From a virus, in the IMG/VR virus record IMGVR_UViG_3300047201_000122, positions 1 through 52,781 of that record: a stretch of DNA of 52,781 nucleotides; one strand, 5' to 3'. Shown here in pieces: positions 1,614 to 51,241 of this stretch (position 1 is the stretch's first letter; each line of letters begins with the position of its first letter). The position numbers and the translations under genes were made by a program. The notes under the pieces are model-generated. The model was not told the DNA's origin. It saw nothing but the letters and a program-made list of their open reading frames with translations, and searched no databases.

Positions 1614-2061
1614 CGTTGAGATAGACCAGGAACAACTTAATAGAATAATGCAAATCCCTTTAAAGGCAAGTAAGAAAGCTTTTAAATATTTAATTACAGA
1701 AGTATGGGGAGGAATGAGAGAAGAGCCACCTGTCCAACACGGAAGATTAGCAGGTAGTTTTGATTTTGACCCCAGCACACTAAAAGATTTTGAAGCTCAT
1801 ATCGTTAGTGGTGTAGAATATGCTGCACACGTAGCTTTTGGAACTGGACTTTATGGACCGTGGAAGCAAGAAATTGTTATTTATCCGAGAATAAAAAAGT
1901 GTCTACATTTTATCTGGCAGGGGAAAGAAATATTTACCAAGAGGGCAGTGGTAAAAGGTATGCATCCTAATCCTTATCACGAGAGGGCAATAAAAAGAGG
2001 AGAAGATAGGATTGATGAATTTTGTGCCAGAGCATTAAGAGAAACAGAACAGGGGGTTTAA
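1606..2061 (+). CDS. HK97 gp10-like head closure / neck protein
   Basis: 151 aa. It has the family pattern: an N-terminal helix, VQHGRLAGSF (the usual TG-L-S segment), VSGVEYAAHVAFGTG (the usual YA-x-x-x-x-GT segment), then a C-terminal PNPYHERAIKR helix. Members seal the portal channel or form the neck before tail attachment. The start overlaps the upstream stop and the next gene begins one base after its own stop, in standard neck-module order. Confidence 0.75.
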   Translation: MISVEIDQEQLNRIMQIPLKASKKAFKYLITEVWGGMREEPPVQHGRLAGSFDFDPSTLKDFEAHIVSGVEYAAHVAFGTGLYGPWKQEIVIYPRIKKCLHFIWQGKEIFTKRAVVKGMHPNPYHERAIKRGEDRIDEFCARALRETEQGV

Positions 2062-2062
2062 T

Positions 2063-2530
2063 ATGGAAGAAAAATATTTTAGTGAAGCAATTGAAGAGAT
2101 TTTAAATGCTATTCAAACTAAGTTAGAAAATGCTACTCAAGACGGAGAATTATTACAGGATGTAAAGGTAATAATAAGAGGAGACAGAACATCAGTTAAA
2201 CCAGTTACTCCTGCTATCTGGATATTTTCTGGAATAGCAGTTCCCTCGCCTGCGACATTACATACTATTGTGGAAAGGTGGGAATTAGATGTACAAATAA
2301 TAAGCGTAGCCTATAATATCAAGACAGAAGAAGGTTATAAAAATGCGAATGATGTTGCAGCCAGGGCAAAAAGGATATTATTAAAGGATAGGACTTTAGG
2401 ATTCGGACACGGGACTTTTTTCGCAGACATAAGAAGCAAATCATTTGACTGTTCAAATCCTGCCTTTGCAAATGGAAATTTTTATTCAGCAATATATACT
2501 GCAACCGCAGTTTTCTGTATTCGGGAGTGA
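2063..2530 (+). CDS. Probable tail terminator / tail completion protein
   Basis: 155 aa. An amphipathic N-terminal helix is followed by alternating strands, including VERWELDVQIISVAY, and a helix with AARAKRILLKDRTLG. This resembles tail-terminator proteins that cap the tail tube and meet the neck. The position directly before the tail tube gene supports the call. Identification is by pattern and synteny rather than by a diagnostic motif. Confidence 0.6.
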   Translation: MEEKYFSEAIEEILNAIQTKLENATQDGELLQDVKVIIRGDRTSVKPVTPAIWIFSGIAVPSPATLHTIVERWELDVQIISVAYNIKTEEGYKNANDVAARAKRILLKDRTLGFGHGTFFADIRSKSFDCSNPAFANGNFYSAIYTATAVFCIRE

Positions 2531-2534
2531 ATTT

Positions 2535-3092
2535 ATGAACAGATTAGATAGAAATCAGTATATGGGAAAGTGGCGAAAGAAGAATAAAGAAGAATGGTCA
2601 AAGTATAATAGTAAATGGAAACAAGAGAATAAAGATAAAGTTAAAAAACATAATAAGAAATATTATCAAGAAAATAGTAATAAAGTATTAGAATTAAATA
2701 AACAATGGCGGAAAGAAAATAAAGAATATTTTTTAAAATATATGGAAGGATATTATATAAATAATAAAGATGGGAGGAAAGAATGTATAAAAAAATATAA
2801 TAAAACAGAAAATGGGAAAGCAACTAAACAAAGGGCTACTTATAAAAGACGAATTAAAATAAAAAATATTATTAATACCTTAAACTCTCAAGAATGGTTA
2901 GATATATTAGAAGCATATAATTATAAATGTGCCTATTGCGATGTAGAATTCGATTGTGAAAATTTACCTACCAAAGACCATATTATACCTATAAGTAAGG
3001 GCGGAGATAATATGAAAGAAAATATAGTCCCTGCTTGTAGAAGTTGTAATTCAAAGAAAAATAATAAAATATTATCAAAAGAAAGGAGATGA
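2535..3092 (+). CDS. Free-standing HNH homing endonuclease, group 1
   Basis: 185 aa, start ATG 2535, four bases after the previous stop. The N-terminal two-thirds is a Lys/Asn-rich repeat (units like KWRKKNKEEW and QWRKENKEYF) that probably binds DNA. The C-terminus carries a zinc-braced HNH core: CAYC, KDHIIPISKGG, then CRSCNSKK. It is closely related to the genes at 4201, 40324 and 44092. It sits in the gap between two structural genes and interrupts neither, the usual free-standing arrangement. No promoter of its own is visible. Confidence 0.85.
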   Translation: MNRLDRNQYMGKWRKKNKEEWSKYNSKWKQENKDKVKKHNKKYYQENSNKVLELNKQWRKENKEYFLKYMEGYYINNKDGRKECIKKYNKTENGKATKQRATYKRRIKIKNIINTLNSQEWLDILEAYNYKCAYCDVEFDCENLPTKDHIIPISKGGDNMKENIVPACRSCNSKKNNKILSKERR

Positions 3093-4200: not shown

Positions 4201-4761
4201 ATGTTTGATAGAAAAACATATAATAAACAATGGTTAAAAGATAACCCAGAATATAAAAAAAATTATTATCAAAAAAATAAAGGAAAAATATCAATACAAT
4301 TTAAAAAACAGTATAAGGATAATCCAGAATATCATAAAAAAAATAATAAAAAATGGAGAAAAAATAATTCAGAATATATAAAAGAATATAATAATAAATA
4401 TAATATAAATAATCCTGAATATAAAAAAGAATATTATCGAAAAAACATAAAGAATATTTTAGAAGGTTGTAGAAAATATTATAAAACAGAAAAAGGAAAA
4501 GCATCTGACCAAAGAAAGCGTTTTAAAAGAAGAGCAAGAGAAAAAGAAATAATTAATACTTTGACAGCAAAAGAATGGTTAGATATTCTCAGACAGCATA
4601 ATTTTAAATGTATTTATTGTGGAAAAGATTTATTTGACTTATTTAATAAACCTACCAGAGACCATATAATTCCTATAAGTAAGGGAGGGAATAATACAAA
4701 GGAAAATATCGTTCCCGCTTGTAGAAGTTGCAATAATAGAAAATATAATAAAATACTATAA
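4201..4761 (+). CDS. Free-standing HNH homing endonuclease, group 1
   Basis: 186 aa. Same architecture as the gene at 2535: a Lys/Asn/Tyr-rich N-terminal repeat, then TEKGKA, INTLTAKEWLDIL, CIYCGKDL, RDHIIPISKGG and CRSCNNRK. The Cys pairs and DHI give the zinc-stabilised HNH site that cuts DNA for homing. It is inserted between the tail tube gene and the chaperone gene. It has its own RBS (TTAGGAGAG) but no clear promoter. Confidence 0.85.
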   Translation: MFDRKTYNKQWLKDNPEYKKNYYQKNKGKISIQFKKQYKDNPEYHKKNNKKWRKNNSEYIKEYNNKYNINNPEYKKEYYRKNIKNILEGCRKYYKTEKGKASDQRKRFKRRAREKEIINTLTAKEWLDILRQHNFKCIYCGKDLFDLFNKPTRDHIIPISKGGNNTKENIVPACRSCNNRKYNKIL

Positions 4762-14067: not shown

Positions 14068-14862
14068 ATGTTAAAATTATATCAAAATAAAAAATGGTTA
14101 GGGGATAAATATATAAAAGATGAATTATCTATATCTCGAATTTCTGAATTATATAAAATAGATAGGAGTTCACTTTATAGAGAATTAGTAAAATTAGATA
14201 TTCCTTGCCGTTCTTATAATGAAGCGAATCATTTGAGACGAAAAAATCATTGTAATTTATCCCAAGAAGCAATCGAATGGTTAAATGGCGAACTTTTAGG
14301 AGATGGGTGTTTGGATTCACGCTCTATTTATTCGGCAAGATTTATGTATGGTTCTAAATATCTTGAGTATGTTGAATATGTAAAAGATACTTTAAATTCT
14401 TTTGGTATAAAACAAGTAGGCAAAATAAACAAAAGAATAAATACAAGACAAGGGAATATTTCTTATTTTTATGCTTCTCGTTGTTATGTAGAATTATTGA
14501 ATATTTATGAAAGATTTTATCCAGAAGGCATAAAAATAGTCCCTAAAGATATTGAATTGACTCCTTTAACTTGCCGTCAATGGTATATTGGAGATGGTTG
14601 TTTGATACATAATAAAATAGGAGATAGTAAAAATGGTAGAGCACATATTACATTATATACTTGTGGATTCACTATTTCAGATGTAGAGTGGTTATTGGAG
14701 CAATTAAATAAATTAAGTTTCAAAGTTACTCGTCAAGTATCAAAAAATTCAATTAATATTTCTGCTTATTCTACTGAAAGATTTTTAAATTATATCGGGT
14801 CTTCTCCAGTTAAATGTTATGATTATAAATGGAGTTACTTTGAGTTGGAAGATAAATTTTAA
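14068..14862 (+). CDS. LAGLIDADG homing endonuclease with N-terminal HTH
   Basis: 264 aa. Residues 1-55 look like a helix-turn-helix (DELSISRISELYKIDRSSLY). Motif 1, WLNGELLGDG, is at 71-80 and motif 2, WYIGDG, at 172-177; each gives the acidic residue of a single-chain, two-motif enzyme. It is the only LAGLIDADG gene here. It has its own promoter and a structured RNA directly downstream. No split gene surrounds it, so it is free-standing rather than intron-borne. Confidence 0.85.
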   Translation: MLKLYQNKKWLGDKYIKDELSISRISELYKIDRSSLYRELVKLDIPCRSYNEANHLRRKNHCNLSQEAIEWLNGELLGDGCLDSRSIYSARFMYGSKYLEYVEYVKDTLNSFGIKQVGKINKRINTRQGNISYFYASRCYVELLNIYERFYPEGIKIVPKDIELTPLTCRQWYIGDGCLIHNKIGDSKNGRAHITLYTCGFTISDVEWLLEQLNKLSFKVTRQVSKNSINISAYSTERFLNYIGSSPVKCYDYKWSYFELEDKF

Positions 14863-28201: not shown

Positions 28202-28230
28202 TTGACTTTTATTTATAATTAGTATATAAT
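28202..28230 (+). promoter_or_regulatory. Promoter of the radical SAM / tmRNA-like transcript
   Basis: TTGACT (28202-28207), 17-bp spacer, TATAAT (28225-28230); the gene starts 33 bases on. It probably also drives the small RNA at 29076. Confidence 0.85.
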
Positions 28231-28262: not shown

Positions 28263-29072
28263 ATGGGTATAATCTATAAACCTCAAGGCAAAGCGAAGGA
28301 ATACAGTCCTTACGCATTGAATATCTATATTGGATGTGACTACGCTTGCAGATATTGCTATATCAAAAATCTCTATGTTAATAACGAAAAGGTAAAACTT
28401 AGAGAAAATCTTATTTCGGGACTAGAGAATCAACTAAAAAAGCAGGAAATAAATAAACAAGTATTATTAAGTTTTCTCGGAGACCCCTATTGTATTGCAG
28501 ATATAGAATACAAAAAAACAAGAGAAACTCTGGAAATACTTAATCAATATGATGTTCCTGTCGCTATCCTATCTAAAGGCGGGAATCGGATACTAAGGGA
28601 TTTGGATTTATTCAAAAAATTTAAGAAGATAAAAGTAGGAGCTACTTTAACCCTCTTAGATAAAAAACAAAATGAATATTACGAGCCTAAAGCTGCATCA
28701 ACTGGAGAAAGAATATGCGTATTAAGAAAATTACATCAAGAAGGTATTCGGACTTGGGTTAGTTTTGAACCAGTTATAGATCCAGAGCAAACCTTAAAAA
28801 TATTGGAATTAACTAAAGATTTTGTAGATGAGTTTAAAGTGGGGAAAATGAATTATTTCCAATTACCGCAAAGTATAAATTGGGGAATATTTGGCGAGAG
28901 TATATCTAAGAGATTATTAGAAATACAAAAAGATTTTTATATTAAAAAAGATTTATATAAGTATATGGATTATAAGTTACAGCCAAAATATATAGACCAA
29001 GATTACCTGGCATTAAAAGACGATACGGAAACGATTAAAGAAAAAGATATAGAGCAACAAATATTATTTTAA
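28263..29072 (+). CDS. Radical SAM enzyme, SPL-like
   Basis: 269 aa. C25, C29 and C32 in GCDYACRYC form the CxxxCxxC site for the 4Fe-4S cluster. The opening NIYIGCDYACRYCYIK, followed by LLSFLGDPY, resembles the spore-photoproduct-lyase-like branch (SplB/Rv2578c type). The substrate is unknown; a DNA- or RNA-modifying role is possible. It has its own promoter and ends three bases before the tmRNA-like RNA, so both are probably on one transcript. Confidence 0.8.
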   Translation: MGIIYKPQGKAKEYSPYALNIYIGCDYACRYCYIKNLYVNNEKVKLRENLISGLENQLKKQEINKQVLLSFLGDPYCIADIEYKKTRETLEILNQYDVPVAILSKGGNRILRDLDLFKKFKKIKVGATLTLLDKKQNEYYEPKAASTGERICVLRKLHQEGIRTWVSFEPVIDPEQTLKILELTKDFVDEFKVGKMNYFQLPQSINWGIFGESISKRLLEIQKDFYIKKDLYKYMDYKLQPKYIDQDYLALKDDTETIKEKDIEQQILF

Positions 29073-29075
29073 TAT

Positions 29076-29204
29076 GGGGGCGACAGGTTTCGATAGTTAT
29101 CTTCCAACGGGCGGGTCCCTCCTAAAGATAAATAGATTTATAACCTTGGAGTCTTTAGATAGGAAAGATGCTATACTCGGGTTCGATTCCCGACGCCTCC
29201 ACCA
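29076..29204 (+). ncRNA. Miniature tmRNA-like RNA (tRNA-like domain without tag region)
   Basis: 129 nt. Acceptor stem GGGGGCG (29076-29082) pairs with CGCCTCC (29194-29200), with G-U at the third pair, the alanine identity mark. Discriminator A and CCA (29201-29204) are encoded. T stem TCGGG/CCCGA (29177-29181, 29189-29193) closes TTCGATT. The 5' GGTTTCGA (29087-29094) is the conserved tmRNA D-loop analogue. P2 pairs ATAG, ATCTT and CC (29093-29105) with 29162-29174. The interior holds two short hairpins (29122-29128 with 29152-29158; 29128-29133 with 29136-29141) and no convincing tag frame. Bacterial tmRNAs are about 260-430 nt. There is no anticodon arm, so it is not a tRNA. Confidence 0.85.
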
Positions 29205-30417: not shown

Positions 30418-31017
30418 ATGAGAATAAAAGGAACATATCATCATTCTGAAAAAACGAAAGAAAAAATAAGTAAATCACATATTGGAAAACATTTATCAGA
30501 AGAATCAAAAAGAAAAATAAGTATATCTAATCTTGGAAAATCTCCTAATCGTTTAGGAATATCTCATACAGAAGAGACAAGAAAAAAAATGAGCAAATCT
30601 CATCTTGGGAATAAATCTACCTTAGGCAAACATCTTTCAGAAGAACATAAAAATAAAATAAGTAAATCTCTTAAAAAGGAAAAACATCCTAATTGGCAAG
30701 GAGGTATTTCATATCAAAAAGGATATGGTAATTTTAAAACTAGAAGAAGAAATATTAAGAAATATAATAATGGAGGTTTCCATACCATTGGAGATTGGGA
30801 GAATTTAAAAGCACAATATAATTGGATTTGTCCTTGTTGTGGGAAAAGAGAACCTGAAATAAAATTATCAGAAGACCACATAATACCAATAACGAAAGGG
30901 GGTAGTGATAATATAGAAAATATACAACCACTTTGTAAGTCTTGTAATTCAAGAAAATTTACAAAGATAATTAGATATAATGAAGGGAGATATATAAAAT
31001 GTATAGAAGTCAATTAA
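30418..31017 (+). CDS. HNH homing endonuclease with NUMOD3 repeats (group 4)
   Basis: 199 aa. Three to four NUMOD3 modules ([58 protein letters not shown]) bind DNA along the minor groove; the nuclease has [36 protein letters not shown] and CKSCNSRK. It separates the exonuclease and ATPase genes. The C-terminus overlaps the next start. Confidence 0.85.
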
Positions 31018-40323: not shown

Positions 40324-40767
40324 ATGTTTGATAAAAAAAAATATATGGAAAAGTGGCGAAAAGATAATAAAAAACATAAAATAAAATATGATAAACAATG
40401 GAAAAAAAATAATCCAGAATATATGAAAAAATGGCTTAAAGAAAATCCTGAATCTAATAGACCAGCTATAAAAAGATATTTCAAAACAGAAAAAGGTAAA
40501 GCTTGTAATCAAAGAGGACATTTTAAAAGACAAGCAAGATTTAGAGAAATTATTAACACCTTGACAGCAGAAGAATGGTTGAATATTTTAAAAGAGAATA
40601 ATTTTAGATGTATTTATTGTGGTAAGGATTTATTAAATTTATTTGATAAACCTGTGAGAGACCATATTATTCCTATAAGTAAAGGTGGGAATAATACAAA
40701 GGAGAATGTAACCTCCGCTTGCAGGAGTTGTAATGCAAAAAAATATAATAAAATTATAGTAAAATAA
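40324..40767 (+). CDS. Free-standing HNH homing endonuclease, group 1 (short)
   Basis: 147 aa, the shortest of its group because only about three N-terminal repeat units remain (KWRKDNKKHKIKYDKQWKKN). Core: TEKGKACNQRGHFKRQA, INTLTAEEWLNIL, CIYCGKDL, RDHIIPISKGG, CRSCNAKK. It is nearly the same as the gene at 4201 in its C-terminal half, which suggests recent copying between sites. Confidence 0.85.
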   Translation: MFDKKKYMEKWRKDNKKHKIKYDKQWKKNNPEYMKKWLKENPESNRPAIKRYFKTEKGKACNQRGHFKRQARFREIINTLTAEEWLNILKENNFRCIYCGKDLLNLFDKPVRDHIIPISKGGNNTKENVTSACRSCNAKKYNKIIVK

Positions 40768-43859: not shown

Positions 43860-44099
43860 ATGTTTATGAGTCTGAAATTAGAAAGTAAAATTAAAAAGGA
43901 AATTGTAGAAGGTTATAATAGAGGAGATATATTACAAAGGGTTAGGAAGGAATTCGGTTTAATAAGAGGAATCGAATTTTGGTATGATATATGTTATAAT
44001 ACTATATGTTCTGAGATGGGTATTAATCGAAAAAGGGGAGAAGAATTGAAACCGACGAAAGTAAAATTAATACCAAGAAGAGAAGGGGATAATGATTAA
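43860..44099 (+). CDS. Small protein, unknown
   Basis: 79 aa. Helical, basic C-terminus (KPTKVKLIPRREG) and FGLIRGIEFWYDICYN. SD GAGGTGAAG. It lies between terminase and portal; overlaps the HNH start. Confidence 0.5.
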   Translation: MFMSLKLESKIKKEIVEGYNRGDILQRVRKEFGLIRGIEFWYDICYNTICSEMGINRKRGEELKPTKVKLIPRREGDND

Positions 44100-44721
44100 T
44101 AAAAAGGAATACAATAAACAATGGCGGGATAAAAATAAAGAACACATTAAGAAATATAATAAAAAATGGTGGGAAGAAAATCCAGACTATAGAAATGAAT
44201 ATTATGAAAGAAATAAAAAGAAGGTAAAAGAACAAAATAAAAATTGGAGGAAAGGACATCCAGAATATGATATAATATATCTGGGAAAATATAGAGAAGA
44301 GAATAAAGAAAGATTATCAATTCAGCATAAAAAATGGAGAGAAAATAATCCAGAACACCATAAGAAATGGCAAGAAAATAATCTTGATAAACTTCAAGAA
44401 ATTATAAAAAAATACAATAAAACAGAAAAGGGGAAAGCAAACGCTCAAAGAGTCCAATCTAAAAGACGTGCAAATGAGAGAGAGATTATTAATACTTTAA
44501 CCTATCAAGAATGGTTGGACATTTTAAAAGGATATAAATATGAATGTGCTTACTGCAATAAGAAATTTGATTTATTCAATAAACCAGAAAGAGACCACGT
44601 TATCCCTATTTCAAAAGGCGGAAACAATATTAAAGAAAATATCGTTCCTGCTTGCAAAAGTTGTAATAGCAGTAAACAAAGTAAAGATTTAATTATTTTT
44701 AATAAAAACAAAGGAAGGTGA
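44092..44721 (+). CDS. Free-standing HNH homing endonuclease, group 1
   Basis: 209 aa, the longest of its group, with about six N-terminal repeat units (KWRENNPEHHKKWQENN and similar). Core: TEKGKANAQR, INTLTYQEWLDIL, CAYCNKKFDLF, RDHVIPISKGG, CKSCNSSK. Inserted between terminase and portal genes. Its ATG overlaps the preceding stop. Confidence 0.85.
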   Translation: MINKKEYNKQWRDKNKEHIKKYNKKWWEENPDYRNEYYERNKKKVKEQNKNWRKGHPEYDIIYLGKYREENKERLSIQHKKWRENNPEHHKKWQENNLDKLQEIIKKYNKTEKGKANAQRVQSKRRANEREIINTLTYQEWLDILKGYKYECAYCNKKFDLFNKPERDHVIPISKGGNNIKENIVPACKSCNSSKQSKDLIIFNKNKGR

Positions 44722-44727
44722 TGATAG

Positions 44728-46302
44728 ATGAGTAATCGGCCTTTTTGTATAGTCACAAAGGCAGGTAATACTGTCAGGGCAGAAATACTCGATAAATATA
44801 CTCTATCCGGCGAAAGTAAACAATTGGAATCTGATGTATTTGCAGATAGATATGAAAAATATGAATTACAAACTCCACTATACAATCCAATCATAATGGC
44901 CAAACTTATGGAATATTCGACATATCATATGCGTTGTTGCAAAGTAAAGGCAGGTGATTGCGTAGGACAAGGGTGGAGTTTATACCCTTTAGTAGAAAAT
45001 CCAAATGATGCACAAAAGAAAACGATAGAAGAATTCTTTAAGAAGCTACCTGAACCAATAGAAAATACCATTGAAAAAGCACAATTAGATAAAGAACTAA
45101 TTGGTTATTTATCGATAGAAATAGTCAGGGAATATAATAAATTTGATGGTATTATTAGTCTAATAAAACATATTCCAGCTCATACCGTAAGGATTCATAA
45201 GAGCGGGAATAAATTCTGTCAATTATGGCAGGGTGGATTAGGAACTGAAGAAAGAGTATGGTTTAGAAAATTAGGATACGGAAAGGATATTGAAAAAGTA
45301 AATGGATTAGAAAAGGAATCAGGGGAATATACTAAAGAAGAGAGAGCAAATGAATTATTCTGGGATGTAAATTATACCCCCAGAAGTTATTTTTATGGAA
45401 TTCCTGATATAACACCTGCAATAGGAGCTATTACTGGAGATATATCCAGAAGGGATTATAACATAGACTTCTTTACTAATTATGGAGTCCCCGCTTATAT
45501 GGTATATATCACTGGAGATTTTGACCCTGGAGAAGAGAACCCTGAAACTAAAAAGACTCCAATGGAAGAAGAAATAAATGAGAAATTTAAAGAAATCGCT
45601 AAAAATCCTCATTCAGTTATGATTTTAAGTGTTCCAAAAAGAGAAGGTGGTATGGGTGAAGTAACCATTGAAGTAAAACCATTATCAATTGAAGTAAAAG
45701 AAGCAAGTTTTAGAATGTATCGAATAGATAATAGAAACGAAATAATATCTGCTCACGGTATACCCCCATACCGTATAGGGGTATATGAAACAGGAGAATT
45801 GGCAGGTAATTTAGGGCAAGAATCCACTATTATATATAATGAGAGCATAATAAAACCAAGACAAAGGGTATATAAGAATTTAATTAATTTTTACGTCTTG
45901 CCTTCCTTAGGAATAACCGATTGGGAATGGGAACTAAATTCTATTGATATAACTGATGTGGATAAAGAATTAGACCGGGTAGGGGTATTAATTGATAAGG
46001 CAATGGCCACTCCAAACGAAGGGATTGCTTTTATTGGAGATTATTTTGGGATAGAAGTTAAAAGCGATAATCCGGCTATGGATTTACATTATTATATGGG
46101 ACAACCGATAGATTTAGGCGGATATGTTCCTGCTTCTGATATTACCAATGTATTACAAGGTATGAAAGAAAAATTAATTGAGGTGTTTATAGCTAATGTT
46201 ACAAAATCAAGCGGGAGTGATGCTATTCGAGATAGAAAACTTATTAAAGCGATTGCAGACCTTCAAAAAGATTCCAGCAGAAGTAATCAGAGAAGAAAAT
46301 AG
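44728..46302 (+). CDS. Portal protein
   Basis: 524 aa. Segments typical of PBSX/SPP1-like portals: PLYNPIIMAKLMEYSTYHMR, LIGYLSIEIVREYN, HIPAHTVRIHK, YGIPDITPAIGAI and a YNIDFFTNYGVPAYMVYI wing helix. The dodecameric ring is the door for DNA entry and the base for head assembly. It is followed by an overlapping MuF-type gene in the standard order. Confidence 0.85.
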   Translation: MSNRPFCIVTKAGNTVRAEILDKYTLSGESKQLESDVFADRYEKYELQTPLYNPIIMAKLMEYSTYHMRCCKVKAGDCVGQGWSLYPLVENPNDAQKKTIEEFFKKLPEPIENTIEKAQLDKELIGYLSIEIVREYNKFDGIISLIKHIPAHTVRIHKSGNKFCQLWQGGLGTEERVWFRKLGYGKDIEKVNGLEKESGEYTKEERANELFWDVNYTPRSYFYGIPDITPAIGAITGDISRRDYNIDFFTNYGVPAYMVYITGDFDPGEENPETKKTPMEEEINEKFKEIAKNPHSVMILSVPKREGGMGEVTIEVKPLSIEVKEASFRMYRIDNRNEIISAHGIPPYRIGVYETGELAGNLGQESTIIYNESIIKPRQRVYKNLINFYVLPSLGITDWEWELNSIDITDVDKELDRVGVLIDKAMATPNEGIAFIGDYFGIEVKSDNPAMDLHYYMGQPIDLGGYVPASDITNVLQGMKEKLIEVFIANVTKSSGSDAIRDRKLIKAIADLQKDSSRSNQRRK

Positions 46303-50464: not shown

Positions 50465-51241
50465 ATGCAAATAGGTATTGTAGGATTAGGAGTAGTGGGA
50501 AATGTAACTTATAATATATTAAAATCAAAACATAGTTTAAGAATATTTGACCCAGATAAAGGATTTAATAATAACCTTTCCAATTGCGATATTATCTTCA
50601 TATGCATTAATGAGAAAGACCCTACTATGAAAAACCTTGATAATCTAATTGCTGTTTTAATAAAGACAAATATAAAGGCAATATTTGTTATTAGAACGAC
50701 AGTTATCCCCGGCACTACAGATAGATATATTAAAACTCACAATAGAGATTTTGTCTATATGCCTGAATTCATCAGGGAATGGAATGTGAAATATGATACT
50801 TTACATCCAGACAAAATAATCATCGGGACAGAAAATCAAGAAATATGGGGACAATTATATGGAATGTTTAGCTACCATTTTCCTAACACAATAATTATTC
50901 AGGTAAAACCAATTGAAGCAGAAATAGCAAAATTAGCTTTGAATAGTTTAGCTTTAATTAAAGTAGTTTATGCCGAGCAATTATATGATGTGGTTGAAAA
51001 ATATAAATGTGATTATGGAAACATTTATAGGATATTTAATTCAGACCAGAATGTAAATGCAAGACATTTATTTGCGGGGAAGGATGGTTATCGAGGAGCA
51101 GATGGAAAATGTCTTCCAAAGGATGCTGAATTTTTATTAAACTCTTCAGGGGCTTCTAATATGGGATTATTAAAATTAGCTATCGAATTGAATAAACATT
51201 ATTTGAAAGAAGGAAATAATGATGAAAGAAAATCCATTTAA
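50465..51241 (+). CDS. UDP-glucose/GDP-mannose dehydrogenase-like enzyme
   Basis: 258 aa. GLGVVG (7-12) is the NAD-binding turn; C216 in GADGKCLPKDAEFLL is the catalytic Cys of nucleotide-sugar dehydrogenases, which make UDP-glucuronate-type sugars. The usual 400+ residues and the C-terminal UDP-binding domain are missing, so it may be a reduced form. It overlaps the glycosyltransferase gene and lies between capsid and connector genes. Confidence 0.8.
   Translation: MQIGIVGLGVVGNVTYNILKSKHSLRIFDPDKGFNNNLSNCDIIFICINEKDPTMKNLDNLIAVLIKTNIKAIFVIRTTVIPGTTDRYIKTHNRDFVYMPEFIREWNVKYDTLHPDKIIIGTENQEIWGQLYGMFSYHFPNTIIIQVKPIEAEIAKLALNSLALIKVVYAEQLYDVVEKYKCDYGNIYRIFNSDQNVNARHLFAGKDGYRGADGKCLPKDAEFLLNSSGASNMGLLKLAIELNKHYLKEGNNDERKSI

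Follow-up and report, generated by a model that had tools for sequence, protein, structure and literature searches.

The window examined here, the whole analysed stretch of 52,781 nucleotides, corresponds to a 52.8-kb IMG/VR virus contig in which portal, terminase, protease and tail genes are present. A radical SAM gene (phrog_13321) occupies positions 28263-29072 on the plus strand, and a short RNA of the same direction begins 3 nt beyond its stop codon. Rfam cmscan aligns this RNA (29076-29204, +) with the tmRNA model RF00023 over its full length (1-374 of 374) at 53.6 bits and E = 2.3e-18, over the curated cut-off of 47 bits, and no other Rfam match in the window passes its threshold. The first-pass annotation had read this segment as a complete tRNA-like domain (TLD) of tmRNA type within 129 nt and had proposed such a covariance search, whose outcome bears the reading out. 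With its 129 nt, however, the RNA lacks most of the 374-position model, that is, the pseudoknot and tag part. ARAGORN found no tRNA and no tmRNA in the window, missing the short form, so that the mini RNA is the only tRNA-like gene detected in this phage. An ordinary tRNA with an anticodon arm and a canonical D arm was considered and rejected, as neither ARAGORN nor the ordinary tRNA model RF00005 gave a match over threshold in the window.

The acceptor stem P1 is formed by GGGGGCG at 29076-29082, with G3 at 29078, and by CGCCTCC, with U70 at 29198, in the 3' segment 29194-29204; all seven pairs with 29194-29200 are made, and ACCA is encoded at 29201-29204. The T arm (29177-29193; TCGGG-TTCGATT-CCCGA) is apparent in the sequence and in the Rfam alignment and pairs at five of five positions (29177-29181 with 29189-29193). 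The D-loop analogue at 29086-29093, GGTTTCGA, also written GGUUUCGA in the anatomy of the window TLD, is a hallmark of tmRNA and is identical in 29 of 33 distinct mini RNAs. A 7-bp acceptor with G3·U70, a T arm and a reduced D-loop analogue (GGNUUCGA) together satisfy the definition of a tmRNA TLD. The P2 helix expected of bacterial tmRNA (RF00023) is likewise indicated by the fold of the insert and by covariation in the family; its strands, 29094-29105 and 29162-29173, form 11 pairs with a bulge and close over 56 nt (29106-29161), which replace the pseudoknots and the tag and in which hairpins are predicted at 29109-29119 and 29122-29158. Every element that the first-pass annotation had listed could be located, and its estimate of about 55 nt inside P2 was close. 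Because the folding energy of the whole RNA is unremarkable (z = -0.73), the case rests on homology and covariation and not on stability. On these grounds, the assignment of 29076-29204 as a complete, phage-encoded tmRNA TLD of 129 nt without a tag is supported at the level of sequence.

Examination of all frames revealed no convincing tag frame in the window RNA, that is, no plausible combination of resume codon, tag and stop. The sole short frame starting from a GCN codon encodes AGPS followed by a stop and is not tag-like, in agreement with the earlier judgement of the same frame. Inspection by eye of the relatives of 135-140 nt disclosed no convincing hidden tag frame, and 79 of 103 distinct mini sequences are only 77-84 nt long, which leaves no room for one. 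The 56-nt insert folds into nested hairpins, and the usual pseudoknots are not recognisable in it, although no dedicated pseudoknot program was used. A candidate pseudoknot, CTCC/GGAG crossing CTAAAGA/TCTTTAG, was dropped because both connecting loops would have zero length. The loss of the tag and of recognisable pseudoknots is what would be expected if the RNA were a full-length tmRNA decaying after an internal deletion, a reading that can be judged from its relatives.

Such relatives were sought in IMG/VR with patterns that set the 5' and 3' hallmarks a short distance apart; the initial broad pattern was swamped by tRNA T-loops, which was remedied by changing GGN to GGW. A spacing of 40-69 returned 16 contigs, mostly with complete mini-TLDs, and a spacing of 70-100 returned 11, roughly half of them complete. 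At a spacing of 24-44, 114 contigs were obtained, with a perfect 7-bp acceptor in 108 of the 112 examined. The total amounts to 103 distinct complete mini-TLDs of graded lengths between 70 and 140 nt, in which P1, the T arm and the D-loop analogue are conserved. Pattern scans at spacings equivalent to ~146-240 nt gave no mini form of such length, so that, as far as these patterns reach, the mini RNAs form a size class of their own and are not the tail of the full-length tmRNAs. The RF00023 cut-off is exceeded in 61 of 65 carrier records, every time through mini forms. Neither full-length tmRNA nor SmpB was detected in any of the 65, many of which are fragments, so that absence is not proof for an individual phage; of 54 carriers tested, none has a gene for a release factor with an RF-1 domain (ArfB-like). 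A blastn search with the window region against 50,697 phages gave no match. In one record (L239), a second copy of the 3' end of the mini RNA (CGTCTCCACCA) lies just upstream of the mini RNA at 2008-2144 (-) and stops 4 nt short of the 5' end of that RNA, which may reflect a tandem duplication or an att-like repeat.

Mini RNAs of differing length occur in the phages that have genes in common with the window (L134, L135, L138, L139, L130 and L133). Seven related AT-rich phages are identical in the last 30 nt (ACTCGGG...CACCA) but not in the insert or in the flanks. When the conserved parts of 32 sequences were aligned, P2 showed two-sided changes at six of six pairs with 88% of cells paired, and the structure as a whole received a covariation score of 0.72, as against 0.16 for shuffles and ~0.11 for slid controls. 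Pairing in P1 and the T arm served to select the sequences and is not independent evidence, whereas P2 was not a criterion; the compact class reproduces the P2 result. Decay is very hard to reconcile with these data: all stems are intact, P2 covaries, relatives with other insert lengths keep an identical 3' end, and neither a full-length form in the relatives nor intermediates of ~146-240 nt in the scans came to light. The first-pass annotation had named a decaying full-length copy as what would refute its reading; the gene-sharing relatives contain only mini forms, and no full-length one was detected in the carrier records. The ssrA gene is a common integration target, and 3' fragments of it occur in phages, for example in Milly beside an integrase, so the window RNA might be an att remnant of a host ssrA. 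An att fragment comprises the 3' end only, however, whereas the window RNA is complete in both halves and no integrase is found among the neighbouring genes; this origin can practically be dismissed.

Base 70 is an invariant U in those sets whose search left it free. As the scan for the compact class had fixed U70, it was rerun with C70 and a looser base 69, and a single contig was recovered against 114 with U, which also indicates that a pattern of this kind is seldom matched by chance. That sole G3-C70 mini TLD (L357:7289-7356, -; GGGCCTG/CGGGCCC), whose sequence marks it as a genuine variant, is predicted not to be charged with alanine. The 114:1 ratio of U to C points to selection for alanylation, that is, for alanine identity, an inference from sequence conservation in the absence of any demonstration of charging. 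Together with the lack of a phage SmpB, selection on G3·U70 would be compatible with alanine charging and with binding of SmpB, as the first-pass annotation had inferred, the SmpB being that of the host; this support is indirect, as there are no charging or binding data. For the alanylation and the binding to SmpB and EF-Tu that characterise bacterial tmRNA, the ratio of U70 to C70 is the only pointer.

Judging from the records in which they occur, the mini RNAs come nearly all from viruses. A longer pattern run over ~85,000 species genomes yielded two complete mini RNAs, the first on a phage-like contig of small size binned with Bacteroidetes, and the compact pattern was absent from 396 Actinomycetota and 398 Pseudomonadota genomes (0 of 794 bacterial genomes in all). 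The second of the two, a mini TLD of 136 nt (L214:7676-7811), is present in a member of the candidate phylum Staskawiczbacteria that has a normal tmRNA too, with an IS30-like transposase gene at a distance of a few kb. Cultured carriers are the Streptomyces phages GiJojo and BRock, the Pontimonas phage phiPsal1 and the Stenotrophomonas virus Jojan60, in which the mini RNA either lacks annotation or has a 'hypothetical protein' overlapping it; LuckySocke, pSt2308 and Alone3 are additionally indicated by blastn. Other cultured phages, whose tmRNA is full-length or permuted, were kept apart from this set. Several compact relatives are located in phage tRNA arrays, which would suit a decoy that diverts a host defence aimed at tmRNA, alanyl-tRNA or tRNA elbows. 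To our knowledge, no defence system targets the structure of the tmRNA TLD, and we give this explanation little credence.

The genomic setting bears on how the RNA would be produced. A promoter-like element, TTGACT-17-TATAAT (28202-28230, +), precedes the radical SAM gene; it agrees with the consensus at 11 of 12 positions and rests on that match only. Since the stop codon of the gene lies so close to the RNA, co-transcription of the two and release of the mini RNA by RNase P are likely, though inferred. The gap to an upstream stop is 0-10 nt in 14 of 64 testable cases, behind unrelated genes. This arrangement, and the 3-nt gap in the window, would also suit a tRNA-like element that serves for processing or punctuation of the operon and does not act on the ribosome; RNase P and the 3' tRNA nucleases would cut it and so shape the ends of phage mRNAs. 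Many copies are not close to an upstream gene, however, and such an element would leave both the selection on U70 and the tmRNA-specific D-loop analogue unexplained, so that we regard it as improbable. In L234 (18079-18184), L127 (11846-11954), L258, L332 and L252, the upstream frame does not reach its stop codon until the initial nucleotides of the mini RNA, and RNase P cleavage would thus leave the upstream mRNA without a stop. A comparable overlap exists between smpB and ssrA in Carsonella.

The terminase and portal proteins give no clear answer as to the host. The nearest portal protein of a named phage to that encoded at 44728-46302 is from the archaeal Methanobacterium virus Drs3 (41% identity), which is odd beside a bacterial tmRNA domain. 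We know of no tmRNA in archaea, and a bacterial host is therefore assumed, not shown. The window is further characterised by numerous genes for homing-type endonucleases: one with HNH and NUMOD3 domains (30418-31017), HNH genes at 40324-40767 and 44092-44721, a LAGLIDADG gene at 14068-14862, and genes at 2445-3092 and 4201-4761, whose matches are to the same related loci as those of the HNH genes. A gene at 50465-51241, adjoining the head genes, encodes a UDP-glucose/GDP-mannose dehydrogenase-like protein of 258 aa with the NAD-binding and central domains.

A tmRNA of mycobacteriophage DS6A (Phage__Mycobacterium.9) was listed as 'TLD only' in a survey of 2014, according to which a DS6A-like molecule strongly inhibits tmRNA in E. 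coli in chargeable and unchargeable form alike, perhaps by titration of SmpB (PMC4131195). A database paper of 2025 makes the same statements and adds tag-less plastid forms of ~65 bp (PMC11915505). The underlying work (Mao et al., 2009) is known to us only through these two sources (PMC4131195; PMC11915505). The DS6A RNA shares with the window RNA a phage-encoded tmRNA TLD and the lack of a tag. It is, however, 'little more than the TLD', whereas in the window RNA a P2 of 11 bp encloses an insert of 56 nt, and the relatives are graded from 70 to 140 nt; the window RNA also stands behind a radical SAM gene in a phage of ~30% GC without detected tRNA genes. The same TLD is borne by the full-length tmRNAs of Bxz1, Wildcat, phage G, cluster M and Gordonia GMA2 and by the permuted tmRNAs of Caulobacter, Synechococcus and Stenotrophomonas phages, but those encountered in this analysis measure ~250-430 nt, and the annotation of several includes a tag, which the window RNA lacks. 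Jakobid mitochondrial and Mallomonadaceae plastid tmRNAs resemble the window RNA in having lost the tag frame and kept the TLD; they differ in being organellar, the plastid form is only ~65 bp, and some mitochondria are known to have SmpB as a partner (PMC4131195; PMC11915505). The literature searched, which left out most subscription papers, contained no account of a wider TLD-only class in phages. The window RNA is thus neither unique nor new in kind: it is a long-insert variant of a known, barely described class that is widespread in phages. Among the phages with larger tmRNAs, a permuted tmRNA of Tunturiibacter phage Tunturi_4 is situated directly behind an RF-1-domain (ArfB-like) release factor gene (L149:1116-1463, 1468-1877), so that two ribosome-rescue functions are paired side by side. 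Gordonia phage GMA2 has a Pistol ribozyme (L162:1542-1598; 56.8 bits) in its tRNA array near the full-length tmRNA.

Trans-translation is the main ribosome-rescue pathway of bacteria. The published DS6A work and the anatomy of the RNA suggest, with a probability that we put at about one half, that the mini RNA is a chargeable decoy which uses host SmpB and blocks trans-translation. It would be transcribed with the upstream gene and trimmed at its mature 5' end by host RNase P; selection on G3·U70 suggests charging by the host AlaRS, and host SmpB is presumed to bind at the elbow. The charged RNA-SmpB complex might then compete with its host counterpart, tmRNA-SmpB, both for SmpB and for access to stalled ribosomes. 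In the absence of a tag frame trans-translation could not finish, nascent chains would remain untagged for proteolysis and SmpB would be tied up, making the mini RNA a dominant-negative inhibitor of host trans-translation during infection. The structure, the missing tag, the selection on the TLD and on the alanine pair and the failure to detect a phage SmpB are the observed steps of this scheme; expression, charging, SmpB binding, an effect on tagging and the host have not been shown. The choice between blocking and replacing trans-translation, both raised by the first-pass annotation, is a matter of inference.

Titration of SmpB alone should need no charging, yet G3·U70 is kept almost without exception, which implies a role for the attached alanine and favours the main alternative, a tagless rescue RNA. 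Charged with alanine and delivered by host SmpB, such an RNA would take over the nascent chain while other factors release the ribosome, freeing ribosomes without marking phage proteins for proteolysis, as has been proposed for the tag-less mitochondrial tmRNA, which is retained alongside SmpB (PMC11915505). No carrier tested encodes an ArfB-like factor, so that hydrolysis would depend on the host, and the effect reported for a TLD-only RNA in E. coli is inhibition (PMC11915505); we consider rescue possible, but on present evidence unlikely. A wider formulation, that many phage lineages carry a dedicated family of message-less tmRNAs for which the alanine charge is essential and which actively take nascent chains from stalled ribosomes via host SmpB, as a system under phage control for tag-free rescue or against trans-translation, is offered only tentatively.

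Whether phages manipulate trans-translation is largely an open question. Where a single TLD-only phage RNA had been on record, there are now more than 100 distinct ones, nearly all viral, which have kept the alanine pair and dropped the tag. The mini RNAs allow a direct test of whether the pathway is a target and whether it is blocked or replaced, and three groups of cultured phages with named hosts (GiJojo and BRock on Streptomyces, phiPsal1 on Pontimonas and Jojan60 on Stenotrophomonas) make this test practical. The mini RNAs are probably a common means by which phages jam or take over the ribosome rescue of their hosts.
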